Below, piece by piece: positions 5,513-30,428 of a stretch of DNA of 64,000 nt (its first letter is position 1; each line of letters starts with the position of its first letter). The DNA lies in assembly GCF_014650175.1 (NCBI RefSeq), contig NZ_BMUL01000024.1, positions 1 to 64,000 on the forward strand, read 5' to 3'. The notes under the pieces were generated by a model, which did not search any database, was not told the origin of the DNA, and saw only the letters and a program-made list of their open reading frames with translations. Both the position numbers and the translations under genes were made by a program. Origin of the DNA: Streptomyces termitum. Lineage in GTDB: Bacteria; Actinomycetota; Actinomycetes; Streptomycetales; Streptomycetaceae.

Positions 5513-7207
5513 ATGCCTGTTGGAGGACCGACCGGAGGACTCGTCCTCCGCGAGGCGATCAGAGGCCAGCGCCGAAGGATCGTCCCGGCGTCCGCGCTCG
5601 GCATGATCCACCAGGCGTGCGAGGCCCTGGTCCCCGTGGTCATCGGCGCCGCCATCGACTCGGCGTTCGCCACCGGCTCCGCCCAGGCCCTGTTGCGCTG
5701 GCTACTGCTCCTGGGCGTCCTCTTCCTCGTGCTGTCCACCTGCTACCGGACGAGCGCCAGGATCGCCGAGGGCGCCGGGGAACACGCCGCCCACCGGCTC
5801 CGCCTCGAACTCGGCGCCCGCGTCCTCGACCCGCGCGGCGGCGCCGACGCCGACCGCCTGCCCGGCGCGCTCACCAGCATCGCCACCAACGACGCCCGCC
5901 GCGTCGGCTCCGTCGCCACCGTGCTCCCCTACGGCTGCGCGGCGATCGCCGCGCTCGTGGTCAGCGCCGTCGCCCTGCTGAGGATCTCCGTCCCGCTCGG
6001 CCTGCTCGTCCTCCTCGGCATCCCGCCCCTGCTCTGGCTCGGCCACCGCATCAGCCGGCCCCTGGAACAGCGCAGCGAGACCGAGCAGGAGAGCGCCGCG
6101 CACGCCTCCGGCGTCGCCGCCGACCTGGTCTCCGGCCTCCGCGTCCTCAAGGGCATGGGCGCCGAGTCCGCGGCCGTGGACCGCTACCGCACCACCAGCC
6201 AGGAGTCGCTGGCCGCGGCGCTGCGGGCGGCCCGCAGCCGCGCCGGCCACGAAGGCGCGCTCCTCGCCCTGACCGGCGTCTTCATCGCGGTCATCGGCAT
6301 CGTCGGCGCCTACCTGGCGATGAACGGCAGCATCAGCGTCGGCGACCTGGTCGCCGCGGTCGGACTCGCGCAGTTCCTCCTCGCCCCCTTCCAGCTCCTC
6401 GCCTACTCCAACGCCGAGTTCGCCCAGGCCCGGGCCTCCGCCCGCCGCATCGCCGACGTCCTCGCCTCCCCCACCGCCGTCACCGGCGGTGAGCGGGCCC
6501 CCGACGGCGCCACCGCCGGGCACGTCCGGCTGCGCAACGTCCACCTGGGCGACCTGCGCGGGGTCGACCTCGACTTCCCGGCCGGCAGCCTCACCGGCGT
6601 CGTGACCCGTGATCCGGCCGCCGCCCGGGACCTCCTCCTCGCCCTCGCCCGCGAGACGGACCCCGCCGACGGACACGTCGAACTCGACGGCGTACCGCTG
6701 ACCGAGCTCGACCCGGATCTGCTGCGCCGCCGCGTGCTCGTCTCCCCCCACGACGCCGACCTGTTCGAGAGCAGCCTCCTGGACAACGTGCGGGCGGGGG
6801 CCGCCGGCCGGGAGTCGGTCGACGCCGCCCTGGCCGCCTCCACGGCGGACGAGGTGACCCGGCTGCTGCCGGACGGCGGGGACACGGTGCTCGCCGAGCG
6901 CGGCCGGTCCCTGTCCGGCGGGCAGCGTCAGCGCGTCGCGCTCGCCCGGGCCCTCGCCACCGACCGCCCTGTCCTCGTCCTGCACGACCCCACCACGGCC
7001 GTGGACACGGTCACCGAGTCCCGGATCGCCGCCCGCCTGCGGGAGAGCCGCTGGGGGCTGACCACCGTCCTGGTCACGACCAGTCCGGCGCTCCTCGCGG
7101 TGACGGACCGGGTGGTCGTCCTCGACGGGGGGACCGTGACGGCCGAGGGACCGCACGCCGCACTCGTCACCGCGAACGAGACCTACCGCAGGGCGGTGCT
7201 CGCATGA
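5513..7207 (+). CDS. ABC exporter half-transporter with degenerate ATPase site
   Basis: A 564-residue fusion of a six-helix exporter membrane domain (about 1-320) and an ATPase domain (about 335-560). I chose the ATG at 5513 over 5501 because GGAGGG lies 5 nt upstream. The ATPase domain keeps a perfect signature, LSGGQRQR. However, the Walker A region reads VTRDPAAARD with no GKS/T, the Walker B end reads LHDPTTAVD without the catalytic Glu, and the H-loop His is missing (VTTSP). It therefore cannot hydrolyse ATP alone. The next gene overlaps as ATGA and has exactly the complementary set of motifs, so the two should form a heterodimer. In coelichelin-type clusters such pairs are thought to export the siderophore. 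Confidence 0.92.
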   Translation: MPVGGPTGGLVLREAIRGQRRRIVPASALGMIHQACEALVPVVIGAAIDSAFATGSAQALLRWLLLLGVLFLVLSTCYRTSARIAEGAGEHAAHRLRLELGARVLDPRGGADADRLPGALTSIATNDARRVGSVATVLPYGCAAIAALVVSAVALLRISVPLGLLVLLGIPPLLWLGHRISRPLEQRSETEQESAAHASGVAADLVSGLRVLKGMGAESAAVDRYRTTSQESLAAALRAARSRAGHEGALLALTGVFIAVIGIVGAYLAMNGSISVGDLVAAVGLAQFLLAPFQLLAYSNAEFAQARASARRIADVLASPTAVTGGERAPDGATAGHVRLRNVHLGDLRGVDLDFPAGSLTGVVTRDPAAARDLLLALARETDPADGHVELDGVPLTELDPDLLRRRVLVSPHDADLFESSLLDNVRAGAAGRESVDAALAASTADEVTRLLPDGGDTVLAERGRSLSGGQRQRVALARALATDRPVLVLHDPTTAVDTVTESRIAARLRESRWGLTTVLVTTSPALLAVTDRVVVLDGGTVTAEGPHAALVTANETYRRAVLA

Positions 7208-9174
7208 CCGCCCTGCACGACGACCGCGCGGATGTCACGGAGATCACGCCCCCGACCGGCGACACGCAGACGGAGACCGACATGAGCGGAACCAGCACGG
7301 ACCACCCGGGCCGCGCGCTCCTCCCGACGGCCGGCGGCGCGGAGAGCCTGGCGGCGCTGCGGGGGATCCTGAGCGGCCACCGGCTCCTGGCCGTCGCCGC
7401 CGCCCTCGTGCTCGTCGCCGGCACCGGGATCGGCCTGCTGACCGCCCCGCTGCTCGGTCACATCGTCGACCTCGTGGTGGAGCGCGAGGGGCCGCGGGCC
7501 CTGACGGTCCCGCTGGTCCTGCTCGTCGTGGTGGCCCTGGCGCGGGGCGCCGCGGCCGTGGCCGGCGGCGTGCTGGTGGCCCGGCTCGGCGAGACGGTGC
7601 TCGCCACCGTGCGCGAGCGGTTCATCGAACGGGCGCTGCGGCTGCCCCTCGAGCGCGTCGAGGCGGCCGGCTCCGGGGACCTGGTCTCCCGCGTCACCAG
7701 CGACGTCTCCATGATCGCCAAATCGGTGCGCCAGGCGCTCCCCGAGTTCACCCGCTCCGCGCTGACGATCGTCCTCACCCTGGCCGGCCTCGCCGTCCTG
7801 GACTGGCGGTTCCTGCTGGCCGCGCTCCTCGCGGTACCCGTCCAGATCCTGTCCGTCCGCTGGTACCTGCGCCGGGCCGCCCCCGTGTACGCGAAGCACC
7901 GCGTCGCCACCGGAGCGCTCCAGCACCAGCTGCTCGACAGCATCGGCGGGGTGCGTACCGTACGGGCCTTCCGGCTCAACGGCCCGCACGCCGCGCTCCT
8001 GGAGGACCGGTCGGGGGCCGCGCGCGACGTGGCGCTGCGCGGGCTGCACATCGTCACCGGGTTCTTCTCCCGGCTGAACCTGGCCGAGTTCATCGGCCTC
8101 GCCGCCATGCTCGGCACCGGCTTCCTCCTCGTCCGGAACGGGGCCGTGAGCATCGGCACCGCCACCGCCGCCGCCCTGTACTTCCACAGCCTCTTCAACC
8201 CGGTCAACGCCGCCCTCTACCTCATCGACGACGCCCAGTCCGCCGGCGCGAGCTTCGCCCGCCTCATCGGCGTGGCGAACCTGCCCGCCGAGCGGACCCC
8301 GGAGGGGGGGAAGGCGCCGGCCGACGGCGCCGTACGCGTGACCGGGCTCGGCCACGCGTACGCCGACGGACGCCCGGTGCTGTCCGGCATCACCCTCGAC
8401 GTGCGCAGCGGGGAGCGGGTGGCGCTGGTCGGTGCGAGCGGGGCGGGCAAGACCACCCTGGCCAAGGTCATCGCCGGCATCCACACGCCGACCGGCGGAT
8501 CGATCTCCCTCGGCGGGGTCGACGTGCGCGAGCTGGGCCCGGAGGGCGTCCGGCGCGCGGTGACCCTGATCAGCCAGGAGGTCCACGTCTTCGCCGGCCC
8601 GCTCGGCGCCGACCTGCGCCTGGCCCAGCCGGACGCCACCGACGAGGAGCTGCGGCGCGCTCTCGCCACGGTGGGCGCCCTCGACTGGGCGGAGGCCCTG
8701 CCCGAGGGCCTCGCCACCGTGGTGGGCGAGGGCGGTCACCGGCTGACAGTCGCGCAGGCCCAGCACGTGGCGCTGGCGCGGCTGGTGCTCGCGGATCCGC
8801 CGATCGCCATTCTGGACGAGGCGACCGCCGACGCGGGCAGCGCCGGTGCCCGGGTACTGGAGGAGGCGGCCGAGCGCGCCCTGGAAGGCCGTACCGGCGT
8901 GGTCGTCGCCCACCGCCTCCCTCAGGCGGCCGCCGCCGACCGGGTCGTCGTCCTCGACGGGGGCAGGGTCGTCGAGACCGGCACCCACACCGAACTGGTC
9001 GCGGCCGGCGGCCGGTACGCGGAGCTGTGGGCCGCGTGGTCGGACAGCCGGCAGGAGGCGGACGTCCCGTCGGCGGCGGGCGCGCGGGCGGCCGGTCACG
9101 CCACCGCGGACGTGCCCGCGCCCGGCCCTTCGGACCGCTCCGGGGCCGGTTCCGCGCTCGGCGGGGGCCGGTAG
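7204..9174 (+). CDS. ABC exporter half-transporter, catalytic partner
   Basis: A 656-residue half-transporter whose start overlaps the previous stop by 4 nt. It has an N-terminal tail of about 50 residues, a six-helix domain to about residue 340, an ATPase domain to about 610 and a Pro/Ala-rich C-terminal tail. Walker A (GASGAGKTT) and Walker B with its Glu (AILDEATAD) are intact, as is the H-loop (VVAHRLPQ). The signature motif is LTVAQ in place of LSGGQ. In the heterodimer, these Walker motifs would face the intact signature of the partner and make one working site, while the opposite site would be dead. The likely job is export of the newly made apo-siderophore. Confidence 0.92.
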   Translation: MTALHDDRADVTEITPPTGDTQTETDMSGTSTDHPGRALLPTAGGAESLAALRGILSGHRLLAVAAALVLVAGTGIGLLTAPLLGHIVDLVVEREGPRALTVPLVLLVVVALARGAAAVAGGVLVARLGETVLATVRERFIERALRLPLERVEAAGSGDLVSRVTSDVSMIAKSVRQALPEFTRSALTIVLTLAGLAVLDWRFLLAALLAVPVQILSVRWYLRRAAPVYAKHRVATGALQHQLLDSIGGVRTVRAFRLNGPHAALLEDRSGAARDVALRGLHIVTGFFSRLNLAEFIGLAAMLGTGFLLVRNGAVSIGTATAAALYFHSLFNPVNAALYLIDDAQSAGASFARLIGVANLPAERTPEGGKAPADGAVRVTGLGHAYADGRPVLSGITLDVRSGERVALVGASGAGKTTLAKVIAGIHTPTGGSISLGGVDVRELGPEGVRRAVTLISQEVHVFAGPLGADLRLAQPDATDEELRRALATVGALDWAEALPEGLATVVGEGGHRLTVAQAQHVALARLVLADPPIAILDEATADAGSAGARVLEEAAERALEGRTGVVVAHRLPQAAAADRVVVLDGGRVVETGTHTELVAAGGRYAELWAAWSDSRQEADVPSAAGARAAGHATADVPAPGPSDRSGAGSALGGGR

Positions 9175-9481: not shown

Positions 9482-9485
<4 letters not shown>
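9276..9485 (-). CDS. mbtH: MbtH-like protein
   Basis: A 69-residue MbtH-family chaperone that binds and activates NRPS adenylation domains. The signature is complete: NPFED near the N-terminus, [14 protein letters not shown] in the middle with both conserved Trp, and [10 protein letters not shown] at the end. Its ATG overlaps the NRPS stop as ATGA, so the two are co-translated. It corresponds to the MbtH gene of the coelichelin cluster and is presumably needed for the solubility or activity of one or more of the four A domains. Confidence 0.97.
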
Positions 9486-23719
<14,234 letters not shown>

Positions 23720-23854: not shown

Positions 23855-24910
23855 CTACTTGACGGCCGTCAGCAGCGGCTCGATCTCGTCGATCGCGTAC
23901 GGGATCGACAGGACGGTGTTGAAGGAGAACGCGGCGCCGATGTCCGGGCCCTGGTAGGGCACGAACAGGTCGCGCTTCTCCTGGTTGACCTTGAGCTTCC
24001 TGTAGAGCGGCTCGGCCTTGATCCGGGTGTTGGCGTCGGTGCTGGAGGTCACCCAGACCAGGCGGTCGACGTCGAGGACGTTCAGCTTCTCCGCGCTCAG
24101 CTCGGCGACGTTCCAGCCGGGCTTGGCGAGCGTGTCGATCTCCGGCTTCAGCTGGAAGCCGAGCTCCTGGAAGAAGATCGACTTGGGGTCGGTCTTCGTG
24201 AACGCCGAGTACTTGCCCGCCTCGAAGCTGTCGGCGACCGCGAGGGTCTTCCGCGCCCACTCCGGGTGCTTGTCACGCACGGCCCTGAAGCGCGCGTCGA
24301 TGCCCTCGATCAGCTTCTCGGTCTCGTCGGACTTGCCGAGGGACTTGCCGATCTGGCGGGTCATCACCTGCCACGAGGCGCCGTAGTCGGGCACCCCCTC
24401 GGGCTGGGCGACGACCTTGGTGAACTTCGAGAGCGTGTCGTACTGCTCCTTCTTCATGCCCGAGTACTGCGCGACGACGAGGTCGGGCTTGAGCGCCGCG
24501 ATCTTCTCGATGTTGTACTCGTCGCGCTCACCGACGATCTCCGGCTTGTCGGACCCCCACTTTTCCTTCGTCCAGGGCCACTTGCCGTACGGGTCCTCCT
24601 TGAACCAGTCCACCGCCCCGACCGGCTTGACCCCCAGCGCCAGCACCGCGTCCTGGTCCGACAGGCCCAGCGTGACGATCCGCTTCGGCTCCTTGTCGAT
24701 CGTGGTGCTGCCGTACTTGTGCTCGATGGTCACCGGAAAGGCGGACGACGCGGTCGTCGCGTCGGTGCTCTTCGGGGCGCCGGGCTTCGGCTCCGCCTTC
24801 TCCGTTCCGCCCCCGCAGGCCGACAGGGCGAGCACGGCGATCGCGGCGAGGGCCGCGCCCGGCAGGTGTCTGCCGGAGCTCCGCGGGGTGGGACGCGTAC
24901 CAAGGGACAC
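23855..24910 (-). CDS. Siderophore-binding lipoprotein (FepB/FhuD type, CchF-like)
   Basis: A 351-residue extracytoplasmic lipoprotein that should bind the ferric siderophore and deliver it to the permeases. The N-terminus has basic residues, a hydrophobic stretch and a lipobox LSAC near residue 32. The rest fits the class III binding-protein fold: RIVTLGLSDQDAVLALG near 85, KPDLVVAQYSGMKKEQYDTL near 150, and a long helical backbone. The start is GTG at 24910 with AAAGGA about 7 nt upstream. It lies between the monooxygenase and NRPS genes, so biosynthesis and capture share one transcript while the membrane parts are on the other iron-regulated operon. Confidence 0.93.
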   Translation of the reverse strand: MSLGTRPTPRSSGRHLPGAALAAIAVLALSACGGGTEKAEPKPGAPKSTDATTASSAFPVTIEHKYGSTTIDKEPKRIVTLGLSDQDAVLALGVKPVGAVDWFKEDPYGKWPWTKEKWGSDKPEIVGERDEYNIEKIAALKPDLVVAQYSGMKKEQYDTLSKFTKVVAQPEGVPDYGASWQVMTRQIGKSLGKSDETEKLIEGIDARFRAVRDKHPEWARKTLAVADSFEAGKYSAFTKTDPKSIFFQELGFQLKPEIDTLAKPGWNVAELSAEKLNVLDVDRLVWVTSSTDANTRIKAEPLYRKLKVNQEKRDLFVPYQGPDIGAAFSFNTVLSIPYAIDEIEPLLTAVK

Positions 24911-25020: not shown

Positions 25021-26373
25021 CTAGCGCGGCGAGCCGATGCCGTCGGCGACCGGCCGGGGCTCGCCCGGCGCGGGCGTCCGCCCCTGGTCGAGGAGGGAGT
25101 CGAGGATCTCGCCGACCCTGATCGCGGTGTTGGAGAGCAGGGACGACGTGATGCCGTGGGTGTGCTCGGTGCCGCCCTGGAGGTAGACGCCGCAGCGCAG
25201 TTCGGCGTCGGTCGTCAGCCGGTAGTCGCGCTCGACGCGGACGCGGCCCTCCTCGTCACGCCGGCAGTGCTCGGCGACCGGGCCGAGCAGTCCGACAGGG
25301 TCGGCGGGGCTGTAGCCGGTGGCGTACACCACGATGTCGGCGTCCAGGAAGCTCTCCTCGCCGGTCACCAGGGAGGTGATGGAGGCGCGGACCTTCTCGC
25401 CGTCGTCCTCGACCCCGGTGAGCCGGGAAACGTTGATGAAGCGGAGGCGTTCGGTGCCGAGGACCTTCTCCTGGTACGCCTGGCGGTAGAGGTCGTCGAT
25501 CAAGTCGATGTCGACGACCGAGTAGTTGGTGTTGCCGTGATAGTCCATCAGCTTCTGCTTCACGTCGTCGGGGGCCGTGAAGTACTCGTCGACGGCGGCC
25601 GGGTCGAAGATCCGGTTGGCGAAGCTGCTGTCGTCCGCGGGGCTGTAGCCGTAGCGGGAGAAGACGGCGCAGACCTCGGCCTCGGGGAAGCGGCGGTGGA
25701 GGTAGGCGACGTTCTCGGCCGCGCTCTGTCCGGCGCCGACGACGACGAAGCGCGTGGGGTTCGTGCCGTCCAGGGCGTCGACCTTGGCGAGGAGTTCGGA
25801 GTTGTGCCAGACGCGGTCCGTGCGCGCGACGCCTTCGGGCATCAGCGGGCGGAGTCCCGTGCCGATCACGAGGTTCCGGGCCCGGTGGACCACGGTCTCG
25901 GTGCCGGTCCTGGCGGTGACGTCGAGGTACTCGATGACGCCGTCCCGTACGACGGGTTCGATCGCGACGACCTCGTGACCGTAGGAGACCATGTCGTCGA
26001 CCTTGGCCGCCGCCCACTCGAAGTAGTCGTGGAACTCGACGCGGAGCGGGAAGAGGTTCTTGTGGTTGACGAAGTCGATCAGCCGGCCCCTGCTCTGGAG
26101 GTAGCAGAGGAAGCTGTACTCGCTGGTCGGATTCCGCAGCGTCACGAGGTCCTTGAGGAAGGAGACCTGCATCGTGGCGTCGTCGATCAGCATCCCGCGG
26201 TGCCAGCCGAAGCCGGACTGCCGCTCGAAGAAGTGCGCGGTGACGGTCTCCTGCCTTCCTACGCCGGCGTTGTGCTCACTGAGCGCTATCGCCATGGCCA
26301 CATTGGACGGCCCGAAGCCGATGCCTATGAGGTCGTGGACCAGAGGGGCGTCGCCAGGAAGGCCCTGAGACAT
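25021..26373 (-). CDS. L-ornithine N5-monooxygenase (CchB/PvdA-like)
   Basis: A 450-residue FAD- and NADPH-dependent enzyme that hydroxylates the side-chain amine of ornithine, the committed step to hydroxamate siderophores. The FAD motif is IGIGFGPSN near residue 16. The family substrate-site stretch MQVSFLKDLVTLRNPTSEYS is near 90, the NADPH motif VVVGAGQSAAEN near 215, and the late ATGY motif (VYATGYSP) near 350. Length and order are normal. It is the first gene of the leftward biosynthetic operon, 90 bp from an iron box, and it feeds both the formyltransferase and A3 of the NRPS. Confidence 0.97.
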   Translation of the reverse strand: MSQGLPGDAPLVHDLIGIGFGPSNVAMAIALSEHNAGVGRQETVTAHFFERQSGFGWHRGMLIDDATMQVSFLKDLVTLRNPTSEYSFLCYLQSRGRLIDFVNHKNLFPLRVEFHDYFEWAAAKVDDMVSYGHEVVAIEPVVRDGVIEYLDVTARTGTETVVHRARNLVIGTGLRPLMPEGVARTDRVWHNSELLAKVDALDGTNPTRFVVVGAGQSAAENVAYLHRRFPEAEVCAVFSRYGYSPADDSSFANRIFDPAAVDEYFTAPDDVKQKLMDYHGNTNYSVVDIDLIDDLYRQAYQEKVLGTERLRFINVSRLTGVEDDGEKVRASITSLVTGEESFLDADIVVYATGYSPADPVGLLGPVAEHCRRDEEGRVRVERDYRLTTDAELRCGVYLQGGTEHTHGITSSLLSNTAIRVGEILDSLLDQGRTPAPGEPRPVADGIGSPR

Positions 26374-26465: not shown

Positions 26466-26484
26466 TTAGGTAAAGCTAACCTGA
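26466..26484. promoter_or_regulatory. Iron box, biosynthetic operon side
   Basis: TTAGGTAAAGCTAACCTGA is a near-consensus 19-bp iron box in the divergent promoter region. It lies closer to the leftward monooxygenase-binding protein-NRPS-MbtH operon. Confidence 0.85.
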
Positions 26485-26570: not shown

Positions 26571-26589
26571 TTAGGTAAGCCTTGCTTTA
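26571..26589. promoter_or_regulatory. Iron box, formyltransferase side
   Basis: TTAGGTAAGCCTTGCTTTA is a good iron box with a strong left half-site. It ends 39 bp before the formyltransferase start and should repress that gene under iron sufficiency. Confidence 0.8.
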
Positions 26590-26628: not shown

Positions 26629-27576
26629 ATGCGGGTCGTCATGTTCGGTTACCAGACGTGGGGTCACCGCACCCTGAAGGCACTCCTGGAGTCCGAACAC
26701 GACGTCGTGATGGTCGTAACACACCCCAAGAGCGAGCACGCCTACGAGAAGATCTGGAGCGACTCGGTCGCCGACCTGGCCGAGGAGAACGGCGTGCCCG
26801 TCGCGATCCGCAACCGGCCCGACGACGACGAGCTGTTCGACCTCCTCAAGGCCGCCGATCCGGACATCATCGTGGCCAACAACTGGCGCACGTGGATCCC
26901 GCCGCACATCTACTCGCTGCCCCGCCACGGCACGCTCAACGTCCACGACTCGCTGCTGCCCAAGTACGCCGGCTTCTCACCGCTCATCTGGGCGCTCATC
27001 AACGGCGAGTCCGAAGTGGGCGTCACGGCCCACATGATGGACGAGGTGCTCGACGCCGGCGACATCGTGGACCAGCGCGCGGTCGCCGTGGGGCCGACCG
27101 ACACGACCACCGACCTGTTCCACAAGACGGTCGACCTCATCGCCCCGGTGACGATCGGCGCACTCGCCCGGATCGCCGCCGGGGAGACCGAGTTCACCCG
27201 GCAGGACCGCTCGCAGGCCAGCTTCTTCCACAAGCGGGCGGAGGAGGACATCCGCATCGACTGGGGCTGGCCGGCCGATGTCCTGGAGCGCCTGGTCCGC
27301 GCGCAGTCCGCGCCGTACCCCAGCGCCTTCACCTTCCACCGGGGCAAGCGCCTGGAGATCCTTTCCGCCGTCGTGTCGGAGGGCCGCTACGGCGGCACCC
27401 CCGGGCGGATCTTCTACCGCGAGGAAGCCGGTGTCGTGATCGTCGCCGGCTCCGATGCCCGCACCGGCCGCAACCACGGACTCGCGGTCACCCGGGTCCG
27501 CACGGAGGACGGCCGCGAACTGCCCGCCACCGAGTACTTCACTTCCATGGGCGGCTACCTCACCGGCCGCCCCTGA
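26629..27576 (+). CDS. N5-hydroxyornithine formyltransferase (CchA-like)
   Basis: A 315-residue enzyme of the methionyl-tRNA formyltransferase fold. It transfers a formyl group from 10-formyl-tetrahydrofolate to hydroxyornithine. The N-terminal domain shows the catalytic set: the Asn and His of NVHDSLLPKYAGFSP near residue 105, and TAHMMDEVLDAGDI near 135. The C-terminal domain (about 205-305) is the OB-like FMT-C domain. I chose ATG 26629 over the upstream in-frame GTG 26596 because GGAGG lies 8 nt before it. The next gene repeats the C-terminal domain. It is transcribed away from the monooxygenase and is under its own iron box. Confidence 0.96.
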   Translation: MRVVMFGYQTWGHRTLKALLESEHDVVMVVTHPKSEHAYEKIWSDSVADLAEENGVPVAIRNRPDDDELFDLLKAADPDIIVANNWRTWIPPHIYSLPRHGTLNVHDSLLPKYAGFSPLIWALINGESEVGVTAHMMDEVLDAGDIVDQRAVAVGPTDTTTDLFHKTVDLIAPVTIGALARIAAGETEFTRQDRSQASFFHKRAEEDIRIDWGWPADVLERLVRAQSAPYPSAFTFHRGKRLEILSAVVSEGRYGGTPGRIFYREEAGVVIVAGSDARTGRNHGLAVTRVRTEDGRELPATEYFTSMGGYLTGRP

Positions 27577-27600: not shown

Positions 27601-27637
27601 CCGTCGCCCCTCGGACGGCCCTGAGGGGCGACGGTTT
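27601..27637 (+). terminator. Rho-independent terminator after formyltransferase
   Basis: CCGTCGCCCCTC and GAGGGGCGACGG form a perfect 12-bp stem with a 10-nt loop, followed by TTTC. It separates the formyltransferase from the MarR-type gene, which should therefore have its own promoter. Confidence 0.85.
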
Positions 27638-27695
27638 CATGACGACACGAGCAGGTCGGGTACACCTGCTCACTCCGCGATCAAGGGACAGCCCC

Positions 27696-28760
27696 ATGGA
27701 ACGACCGGCCGTCTCCGGAATCGCGCACGACGCGTCCGGAGCCGCATTCGCCGTCGTCGGCATATCCAGTCTGCCGACGACCGACTGGGCCCAGATCTTC
27801 AGGACACTGGCCAACACCGACCTCACCGTCCAGGGCGCCGCCCTGCCCGGTGCGCCGCACCCGGCTCCCGCGCCGGAACCGGCACGCGACGCCGGAGGTC
27901 CCGGCGCCGGGACCTCCGGGCCGCCCCGCCTGAGCATGACGCCACCGAGCGTGCTCCAGCTCAACGCCTACCTCCTGTACGCGCTCGGCAAGGCCGCCCG
28001 CCGCCGGCTCACCGAGCGACTCGCCGCCCACAACCTGCGGTTATGGCATCTGACCGTGATGGCGCTCGTCGCCGATCTCGGCCCGCAGATGAAGACCGTC
28101 CTCGCCGCGCGGCTCGACATGAACCCCAGCGACCTGGTGAAGATCGTCAACGACCTGGTGCGGACCGGCCACGTCAACTGCGCCCGCGACCCGGCCAACC
28201 GGCGCCGGGTCCTCGTCCGGCTGACCCCCGAGGGACGGACCTGGCTGGCCCGCCTCAACGCGGAGATCGCCGCGACGGACGACGAGGTCCTCGCCCCGCT
28301 GAGCGAGGAGGAGCGCGTCGTGCTCGCCTCCCTGCTCCGCCGGGTCCACCGGCACCTCGAACCGAGCCCGGCGAGCGTGGTCCACGACCCGCCGCGGGAC
28401 GTCGAGATCCTGGCCGGCGGCTCCCACGAGGACGGCCGCATCGACTGGACGCACCCCGCGGAGGCCGTCGCCCGCTTCGTCGAGACCCGGCGACCGCTGC
28501 ACCCGGCCGCCTTCACCCACCACGACGGCCGACGGTTCGACGTCCTCACCGCGTCGGTCTCCCGCGGCCTCCACACCGGCGAGCCGGGCCTCATCCTGCG
28601 GACCGAGGACGAGGGCGTGGTCGTCGTCACCGGCACGGACCACGGCGGCGCCGGCCGGCCCGGACTCGTGCTGGGCCGGGTCCGCGCCGAAGGGGCCGTC
28701 GAGACGGACGCCGAGGAGCACTTCGGCACGGGGACCGGACATGACGGGGGCCGGACGTGA
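27696..28760 (+). CDS. MarR-type regulator fused to a formyltransferase C-terminal-like domain
   Basis: A 354-residue protein starting at ATG 27696 with AAGGGA 7 nt upstream. Residues 1-80 are an unrecognised segment ending in a Pro/Ala/Gly linker. Residues about 85-220 are a MarR winged helix, with recognition region LDMNPSDLVKIVNDLV and wing RDPANRRRVLVRLTPEG. Residues about 240-345 align almost throughout with the C-terminal domain of the neighbouring formyltransferase: RIDW-HPAEAVARFV, HPAAFTHHDGRRFDVLTASV and EPGLILRTEDEGVVVVTG match RIDWGWPADVLERLV, YPSAFTFHRGKRLEILSAVV and TPGRIFYREEAGVVIVAG. The catalytic formyltransferase domain is absent. Codon 116 is TTA, the rare bldA-dependent leucine codon. 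I infer a local regulator that senses a siderophore intermediate or folate-linked ligand. Confidence 0.85.
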   Translation: MERPAVSGIAHDASGAAFAVVGISSLPTTDWAQIFRTLANTDLTVQGAALPGAPHPAPAPEPARDAGGPGAGTSGPPRLSMTPPSVLQLNAYLLYALGKAARRRLTERLAAHNLRLWHLTVMALVADLGPQMKTVLAARLDMNPSDLVKIVNDLVRTGHVNCARDPANRRRVLVRLTPEGRTWLARLNAEIAATDDEVLAPLSEEERVVLASLLRRVHRHLEPSPASVVHDPPRDVEILAGGSHEDGRIDWTHPAEAVARFVETRRPLHPAAFTHHDGRRFDVLTASVSRGLHTGEPGLILRTEDEGVVVVTGTDHGGAGRPGLVLGRVRAEGAVETDAEEHFGTGTGHDGGRT

Positions 28761-28776: not shown

Positions 28777-29070
28777 TCAGGAGACGCGGCGGCCGAGGGT
28801 CCAGAGGCGGTGGTCCCAGCCGATGTCGGCGCGGGAGCGCACCACGAGCCCCGCGCGCCCGGCGAGGTCCTCGATCTCCTCCGCGCCGCGCACCCCGGAG
28901 CCGAAGGCGCACTTGAGGCGCAGGTGGTGCAGGACCGCCTCCCCGTCCTCGGGGTCACCGGTCGCGACCTGCTCGACCAGGAGCAGGGTGCCGTCCGCCG
29001 CCAGCGAGGCGGCGGCCCCGGAGAGGGTGTGCACCGCGTCCTCGTCGTCCTGCCACTCCAGCTGACGGCG
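28777..29070 (-). pseudogene. C-terminal fragment of a SAM-dependent O-methyltransferase-like protein
   Basis: The minus frame reads WQDDEDAVHTL, then LAADGTLLLVEQ, and ends in GRAGLVVRSR and LWTLGRR. This is the usual end of class I O-methyltransferases (motif DWDDE...LAPGGRLLLVE). An in-frame stop lies just upstream near 29068, and no SAM-binding glycine motif precedes it, so only about 97 residues of a roughly 340-residue protein remain. Its 3' end converges on the MarR-type gene. The break coincides with the left edge of the decayed mobile region. Confidence 0.6.
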
Positions 29071-29517: not shown

Positions 29518-30428
29518 GTGGGTGATCCGCTGGTGTTCCAGCTGGTGGGTGCCGAGGATCTCGGCATGTCGTCGTTTCACGGAATGCCCTCCGTACATCG
29601 GGATCTGATGGATGGCCGCGGCCGGTTGCCGTCGGTCGGTGAGGTGGTGAAGGGGTTGAGACCTTCGCTGCCGTGGTTCGTGGTTGATGCGGCGGGCCGG
29701 GAGGTCGAGCCGGTGAGCCGGTACCTGCGGGATCCGGCGCTCGGTGACGCGAGCGCGCTGACGTGCCGGAGCTAGTTGACCGTGGTGCACGGCTCCTACG
29801 CCTTCCACCAGCACTACGGCCGGGGGCCGGTGATCAACCCGGTGCCCGGGAGCCGGGACCGCCGGGCCCGGCCGGCTCACCGCTCCCCGCTGGAGACGCC
29901 GGCGCCCACCAGGCGGGCCCGGCTGCGGCCGAAGGTGCGGGAGCGCCGGCTCCGGGCGATTCCGGATCGGCTGTGGGACGAGCTGTTCGCGCAGATGAGA
30001 TGCGATCGGGACCGTGCCCTGCTGCCCTGCTGGCCTGCTGGCCTGCTGGCCTGCTGGCCTGCTGGCCTGCTGGCCTGCTGGCCTGCTGGCCTGCTACGTC
30101 GGCTCCGGTGCCCGCGCCAGCGAACTGCTCGGGGTGCGTCTGGAGGACGTGGACTGGTCGGTCGGCCGCTTGTGGGTGATCACCAAGGGCACCGGCCTGC
30201 GGAGACCCGGTGCCCGCGTCCCCGCAGGCGTTCGCCTACACGGCTGCCTACCTGGACCAGGCCGGGCTGCCCGAGCCGGGCGGGCCGCTCTGGCGGACCC
30301 GCCGGGGTGATCCCCGACAGCTGACCCACTGGGCGATGCGCCGCGTGCTCCAGCGGGCGAACGCCGTGCTCGGCTGGTCGCAGACCTACGATCCGGCCGA
30401 CGTCGAGGCGGTGTTCGGTGCCCGGTAG
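29518..30428 (+). pseudogene. Decayed tyrosine recombinase (site-specific integrase) 1
   Basis: Pieces of one integrase follow in order. First comes an N-terminal arm, PWFVVDAAGREVEPVSRYLRD (near 29670-29740). Then there is an in-frame TAG at 29773-29775, where a core-binding segment seems deleted, and the remainder resumes as LTVVHGSYAFHQHYGRGP. After RDRALL an 8-bp repeat expansion shifts the frame. The catalytic-domain start GSGARASELLGVRLEDVDW follows in the new frame. A further shift near 30203 leads to PVPASPQAF and LTHWAMRRVLQRAN. The His-Arg-Tyr catalytic end is missing. The stop is TAG 30426-30428. It cannot make an active enzyme. Confidence 0.8.
30018..30095 (+). repeat. 8-bp tandem repeat (CCTGCTGG)n inside integrase remnant
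   Basis: Eight perfect copies of CCTGCTGG occupy 30026-30089. They are flanked by one copy with a single mismatch (30018-30025) and a 6-nt partial copy (30090-30095). Related integrases read ALLACYVGSGARASELLG here, which needs only 1.75 copies, so the array looks like a slipped-strand expansion of about 64 nt that breaks the frame. Confidence 0.95.

Follow-up and report, generated by a model that had tools for sequence, protein, structure and literature searches.

The gene at positions 27696-28760 (+) of the window, by which we mean the whole 64,000-nucleotide stretch of the Streptomyces termitum contig analysed here, encodes a MarR-type regulator that carries parts of two enzymes. By comparison of sequences, its residues 1-46 are related to the first ACT domain (ACT1) of aspartokinase, and its C-terminal part is the C-terminal domain (Formyl_trans_C, hereafter FMT-C) of a formyltransferase. 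With somewhat less than even confidence, we propose a MarR regulator that is encoded within the formyl-hydroxyornithine siderophore locus on which it acts, and whose FMT-C is an optional modulating module without catalytic function. The sequence-only reading had described a fusion of MarR with FMT-C; both domains are present, but as a description of the full architecture it overlooked the aspartokinase ACT1 half at residues 1-46. The gene starts with ATG, encodes 354 amino acids and has no internal stop codons. It is composed of the following parts:

27696..28760, + strand: regulator gene, 354 amino acids, ACT-half + MarR winged helix + Formyl_trans_C (ORF, Pfam, family comparison)
27696..27833, + strand: residues 1-46, first half of ACT1, copied from the beginning of the aspartokinase beta subunit (profiles, NCBIfam)
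27834..27947, + strand: residues 47-84, variable Pro/Ala/Gly-rich linker (low confidence in the AlphaFold2 model)
27948..28370, + strand: residues 85-225, MarR-type winged-helix domain (Pfam, AlphaFold2, VIA-align)
28371..28424, + strand: residues 226-243, second linker (AlphaFold2 model)
28425..28730, + strand: residues 244-345, Formyl_trans_C domain, catalytic formyltransferase domain absent (Pfam, BLASTP, structure overlay)

The central part of the protein has the MarR winged-helix fold. The Pfam winged-helix model HTH_27 matches residues 125-180 above its cut-off (E 6.3e-6), and the models MarR and MarR_2 match under theirs. An AlphaFold2 model of the regulator was built from a 29-row alignment (mean pLDDT 72.1, pTM 0.41). 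By block means, it is confident at residues 101-190 (83-97) and 251-340 (79-96), middling at residues 1-40 (61-75), weak at the end of the MarR part (191-220, 57-61) and low in the linkers. Residues 95-197 of this model superpose on MarR proteins with a Z of about 14 (VIA-align). The closest solved sequence found in a single-sequence PDB search is PcaV (E 4.7e-11). The regulator shares the winged helix and the MarR fold with family members such as PcaV and HcaR; the solved chains matched have 139-201 amino acids, whereas here domains have been added at both termini.

The C-terminal part of the regulator is well defined. The sequence-only reading placed a copy of the adjacent formyltransferase's C-terminal domain at residues about 240-345, and both the identity of the domain and its limits were right. 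PF02911 (Formyl_trans_C) matches residues 244-340 with E 7.7e-12 and scores 45.7 bits vs a cut-off of 21.1, so that the lack of a profile match in residues 235-350, named with the sequence-only reading as a ground for refuting it, does not apply. The adjacent CchA-like formyltransferase shares 46/111 identical residues (41%) with the regulator (BLASTP, E 5e-23). The overlay of the predicted structure leads to the same domain: residues 243-344 superpose on the C-domain of the ArnA transformylase with Z 14.1 and rmsd 2.0 over 93 residues, and FMT-C superposes on Fmt with Z about 13 (both VIA-align of the AlphaFold2 model). Each of the eight members of the alignment A4 matches both PF02911 and HTH_27 at E <= 0.01. 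The catalytic domain is absent, as had been claimed, and the MarR winged helix is there instead: Formyl_trans_N (PF00551) gives no Pfam match in the regulator at E <= 1, and it is found in the adjacent CchA at E 1.8e-31. Judged by its domain content, the regulator is not a hydroxyornithine formyltransferase. It thus resembles CchA-type formyltransferases, ArnA transformylase and Fmt in having Formyl_trans_C with the same fold, and differs from them in lacking Formyl_trans_N, hence the active site, and in the loss of the HKR stretch and the tail. To what extent the domain has diverged was assessed at 89 positions that are conserved in 23 CchA proteins and were scored in 10 regulators. At these positions 25 residues are kept, including those of RIDW and T-x-H-x-G-x-R, 56 are relaxed and 8 switched, the lost HKR accounting for 3 of the latter. 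Fold-bearing and charged residues are retained in 9 or 10 of the 10 regulators, and the enzyme-specific stretches (HKR, Q-S and the C-terminal tail) are altered.

The identity of the N-terminus rests on profiles and the NCBIfam models, because the single-sequence PDB search with the whole regulator lists no aspartokinase at E <= 0.01. Residues 1-45 match positions 250-293 of the NCBIfam aspartate kinase model (E 8.3e-4). When a five-row profile of the N-terminus was searched against the PDB sequences, aspartokinases were the top matches (4go5, E 1.8e-11; 2dtj, E 4.6e-10), which we take to be from M. tuberculosis and C. glutamicum, respectively. The entry 2dtj is a LysC beta subunit, and residue 1 of its chain aligns with residue 1 of the regulator. 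A 19-row profile likewise retrieved aspartokinase (E 3.6e-9), and singly 16 of the 19 N-termini match the NCBIfam aspartate kinase model, with no other family type among the matches listed. This set of N-termini (A5) comprises 19 of 21 sequences. The excluded L042 and L051 both lack P4, and L051 additionally lacks E2, G8 and A32; of the residues invariant in A5, M1, G15, F18, D30, W31 and L43 alone hold in these two. In its own genome the profile of the ACT half has the aspartokinase (E 2.9e-10) as the sole clear match beyond the two regulators described below; the ACT half and this aspartokinase are 13/46 identical in an ungapped alignment. The piece differs from the beta-subunit ACT1 in several respects. 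The match stops at residue 45-46, so only the first half of ACT1 is present; the KPG loop of the aspartokinase ACT is replaced by P-TDW, a complete ACT domain is not found, and the second ACT is absent. When the ACT half was modelled as 48 residues and used in a fold search, nothing was returned at E <= 0.001 (best E 1.7), and no aspartokinase stood among the best 50 rows. The idea that the aspartokinase start had been captured along with its ribosome-binding site is unsupported, as the local DNA alignment spans coding DNA only.

The same architecture recurs in the genome. A second full-architecture regulator, 78% identical to the first, is encoded on the contig C8 (C8:53949-54974), and both copies exceed the Pfam cut-off for FMT-C. 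Of cchA, the C8 locus retains only a stub of some 20 codons, together with cchB, a pair of iron boxes and the fused regulator. The argC, argJ, argB and argD-like genes lie there together with cchB, the cchA stub and the paralogue (L005 12640-15879, L006 25-4984), so that ornithine-supply genes adjoin a siderophore locus without its formyltransferase.

Related regulators were collected from Streptomyces genomes by one scan using two peptide patterns of the MarR part, which gave 22 loci; because of this way of finding them, counts among these loci are not genus frequencies. FMT-C is fused in 7 of the 22 (L037-L041, L043 and L045), and 12 have an intact ACT-half and MarR without FMT-C. The remaining three are L056 (MarR without ACT), L058 (broken) and L054 (cut at a contig end). 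The broken regulator of Streptomyces sp. WAC08241 (L058, 8514-9693) has its ACT and MarR parts in separate frames. The regulator is adjoined by cchA, with cchB beyond it, in 21/21 readable loci (the 22 minus L054, which reaches the contig end). About 900 bases separate cchA from the regulator in L041, L043, L050 and L055; in L041 this interval holds a DDAH-type gene (7111-7926, PF19420, E 2.9e-6). A bare MarR adjoins cchA in L063, L074, L075 and L076. Three further genome samples, which overlap, were also searched. In 150 genomes spread evenly over the genus, 13 match at E <= 1e-25, and the listed ranges show the fusion in the own genome only. Of 99 genomes from the order, 30 give a match at E <= 1e-20, which is full-length only in the own genome and in G217 (L071). 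Among 100 relatives, 98 match at E <= 0.001; the matches listed, a list cut at its weak end, are mostly to MarR or FMT-C alone, and among them the own genome only is full-length. A plasmid search at E <= 1e-15 gave two matches, of MarR only. In total, 10 fused proteins were found in 9 genomes: two in the own genome, on separate contigs, and eight elsewhere with the same domain order. The fused family spans down to 49% identity, and all 10 copies are in open frame. The regulators thus form one family in several states: MarR; ACT-half with MarR; ACT-half, MarR and FMT-C; and a state in which FMT-C has been lost with a probable scar. Nearly all of those seen adjoin the same biosynthetic genes.

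The regulator gene lies in a siderophore locus that contains the following features:

9482..23719, - strand: NRPS of 4745 amino acids with 4 adenylation, 5 condensation and 4 carrier domains
23855..24910, - strand: periplasmic binding protein, iron-siderophore type (PF01497, E 6.6e-25)
25021..26373, - strand: CchB-like L-ornithine N5-monooxygenase, divergent from cchA (Pfam PF13434, E 1.5e-107)
26466..26484, no strand assigned: iron (DmdR/IdeR-type) box 1 in the cchB-cchA interval, 16/19 to the consensus
26571..26589, no strand assigned: iron box 2, upstream of cchA, 14/19 to the consensus
26629..27576, + strand: CchA-like hydroxyornithine formyltransferase, 315 amino acids, source family of the FMT-C copy (Pfam, tree)
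27601..27634, + strand: 14-pair hairpin separating cchA from the regulator, no T run (folding; relatives)
27649..27671, no strand assigned: palindrome GAGCAGGT-N7-ACCTGCTC, at the position of the relatives' iron-box-like site (sequence comparison)

The iron boxes, CchB and the binding protein agree with the earlier view of a MarR-type regulator within an iron-box-controlled siderophore locus. The substrate of the CchA-like enzyme is presumed to be hydroxyornithine from the adjoining ornithine monooxygenase. The boxes were scored against the 19-position DmdR/IdeR-type consensus. By eye, both are found, with some changes, in 22/22 aligned cchB-cchA regions of MarR-containing loci (the window and 21 loci) and in 6 of 9 such regions of loci without MarR; the other three regions are shorter and have one box each. 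No palindrome specific to the loci with MarR that could serve as a MarR operator was seen by eye beyond the iron boxes in the 22 regions.

Just upstream of the regulator, in stretches of 26-199 bases, 11 of 20 loci have an iron-box-like site of at least 14/19; as background, a score of 14 was reached in 5/500 random 150-base stretches of the window. Because of these sites and the hairpin after cchA, in many species the regulator is probably transcribed from an iron-linked promoter of its own. In the window itself no iron box of the regulator was found at 12/19 or better, and the palindrome GAGCAGGT-N7-ACCTGCTC upstream of the gene is probably an eroded one. Hairpins similar to that between cchA and the regulator occur in 4 of 5 folded relatives (L037, L038, L042 and L044) and are absent in L039. 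Among the relatives the letters of the stem vary on both sides and the pairing persists, as judged by eye. The terminator scan called none at this hairpin. Beyond the regulator gene, a short frame at 28777-29034 (-) resembles the end of the O-methyltransferase whose intact gene adjoins the C8 paralogue (L004 1938-3017); alone, the frame has no Pfam match. Further downstream of the locus, at about 30020-30120, there are short tandem repeats that translate as repeated GLLACWPA.

The BLASTP match and the trees of FMT-C domains bear out the suggestion that the domain is a duplicated piece of a CchA-type formyltransferase. A recent copy of the immediately neighbouring cchA was considered and rejected, as the two are 41% identical and the domain groups with the FMT-C of other regulators on long branches. 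A tree of 42 FMT-C domains splits the 10 of regulators from the 32 of CchA proteins with support 89/92 (not starred). In an earlier tree without L071, the L045 domain fell outside the regulator group, and one clade was not rejected (p-AU 0.355). The tree of the MarR parts is different: the 10 fused regulators do not group, a single clade being rejected at p-AU 3e-9, and well-supported branches force at least 4 changes of FMT-C state. L054 and L058 were omitted from trees or from domain counts, and L064, whose pattern was not found, is absent from the MarR tree. Since the FMT-C domains group while their regulators scatter, the history is most simply explained by one early gain and several losses; several gains or exchanges in place of losses would be less simple. 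A tandem duplication joining the middle of cchA to the end of the downstream regulator gene would give the observed order. For the ACT-bearing regulators the one-clade test gave p 0.09, so the bare MarR may be ancestral or may have lost the ACT half.

A probable trace of FMT-C loss is seen in S. gardneri, whose regulator is unfused and lies near the fused one of S. narbonensis in the tree. Its in-frame C-terminal peptide resembles the tail of FMT-C (63-67% across 18-19 residues, tblastn E 4e-5 to 5e-5) and is probably a deletion scar. Other candidate remnants past unfused genes have E-values that are nearly as good (L049, 1.3e-4; L052, 2.3e-4; L056, 5.7e-4) but were judged to be chance matches, since the frames that hold them are different ones and of low complexity.

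The absence of FMT-C from many members makes it optional, and a passenger is therefore a serious rival to the modulating module proposed here. FMT-C could be near-neutral: joined accidentally, tolerated since it folds independently at the end of a flexible linker, and lost time and again, with MarR, perhaps together with the ACT half, being sufficient. We regard this as possible, if doubtful. The fusion in just 7/22 loci, the forced changes in the MarR tree, the S. gardneri peptide and the 56/89 relaxed positions all speak for it. Pairwise dN/dS values (NG86; the pairs are not independent) point the same way in part: regulator FMT-C gives 0.32-0.71 (6 pairs), above MarR (0.04-0.37, 10 pairs) and above FMT-C within CchA (0.04-0.27, 8 pairs). 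FMT-C exceeds MarR in 6/6 pairs, in one of them barely (0.38 vs 0.37). The ACT half gives 0.25-0.72 plus one value of 1.70 (10 pairs). Against a passenger speak the six FMT-C values, all below 1, the 10/10 copies that stay open despite divergence to 49% identity, the retention of the fold-bearing and charged residues, and the Pfam matches, which exceed the cut-off in both copies of the host genome and reach E <= 0.01 in 8/8 members of A4. In favour of the modulating module, the C8 copy retained the regulator with its FMT-C though the local cchA is a stub.

We keep to the reading of FMT-C as probably a modulator. An essential sensor for the whole family it cannot be, because many members lack it, several losses are the simplest account of its history and it is less constrained than MarR. 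The proposed regulator would be a cluster-situated protein of the MarR type, presumably produced under iron starvation, to which two foreign pieces would have been added: the half of aspartokinase ACT1 at the N-terminus and the CchA C-domain at the C-terminus. After its duplication FMT-C would have kept the fold and lost the catalytic domain, the HKR stretch preceding it and the C-terminal tail. MarR proteins are dimers on palindromic DNA, and the putative dimer would regulate the siderophore locus, at promoters and with a sign that are themselves presumed. FMT-C, on its flexible arm, might bind a pathway compound or protein and so tune the DNA binding of the dimer. Candidate ligands, at a guess, are N5-hydroxyornithine, with or without its formyl group, and the siderophore; a pathway protein is an alternative. 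Formyl-folate, suggested earlier as a ligand, is judged unlikely, because the folate site of these formyltransferases sits in the N-domain, which is missing from the regulator.

A more elaborate scheme seems rather unlikely. According to it, the protein would be a three-protein switch that reads its own pathway via the enzyme piece, the two ACT halves would form a composite domain in the MarR dimer, and the switch would respond to an amino acid or hydroxyornithine and be swapped in and out between Streptomyces species. It is unlikely, too, that FMT-C is a protein-docking module which mimics the CchA C-domain, contacts CchB, CchA or the NRPS and couples transcription to enzyme occupancy. The origin of the domain from the enzyme type encoded next door, the retention of the core fold with the catalytic parts gone and the nature of a lone C-domain, which has no folate site, would suit such a module; the altered enzyme-specific HKR, Q-S and tail would not, nor would the persistence of the C8 copy without a local cchA, though C24 encodes one. 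That a frameshift, a misassembly or a wrong start joined separate genes, a doubt raised with the sequence-only reading, can be dismissed: a frame that is already open well before the true start (ORF from 26403) could mislead, but the ORF is unbroken, the same architecture is found in 10 proteins of 9 genomes, including the 78%-identical C8 paralogue on a different contig of this genome, and GC3 is 0.96 in both the MarR and FMT-C parts.

That an enzyme fold can be recruited onto a winged helix to act as sensor is already known from MocR/GabR, which passages of two articles describe as a GntR winged helix with an aminotransferase-like sensory domain (PMC5320631, PMC4944035). Like the modulating module proposed here, these regulators join a metabolic enzyme fold to a winged-helix DNA-binding domain (PMC5320631, PMC4944035). 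As far as those passages go, they differ in using another DNA-binding family, a whole enzyme fold and a bound cofactor; the regulator described here has no more than a C-domain without catalytic function, and not every family member carries it. The available text of PMC10127220 describes a divergent monooxygenase/formyltransferase pair that is comparable, and its sole match to 'MarR' is an author's name. Among the matches listed in the literature searched, from which subscription journals are mostly absent, no description of ACT-half, MarR and FMT-C in one protein was found.

The fusion suggests that bacteria can assemble new control proteins from fragments of surrounding enzymes. Through the series of states preserved in the family, it becomes testable how regulators gain sensory domains and whether an enzyme fragment brings a ligand or partners with it. 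Hydroxamate siderophore clusters are usually described as controlled by an iron repressor, and the regulator suggests a second control layer in them.
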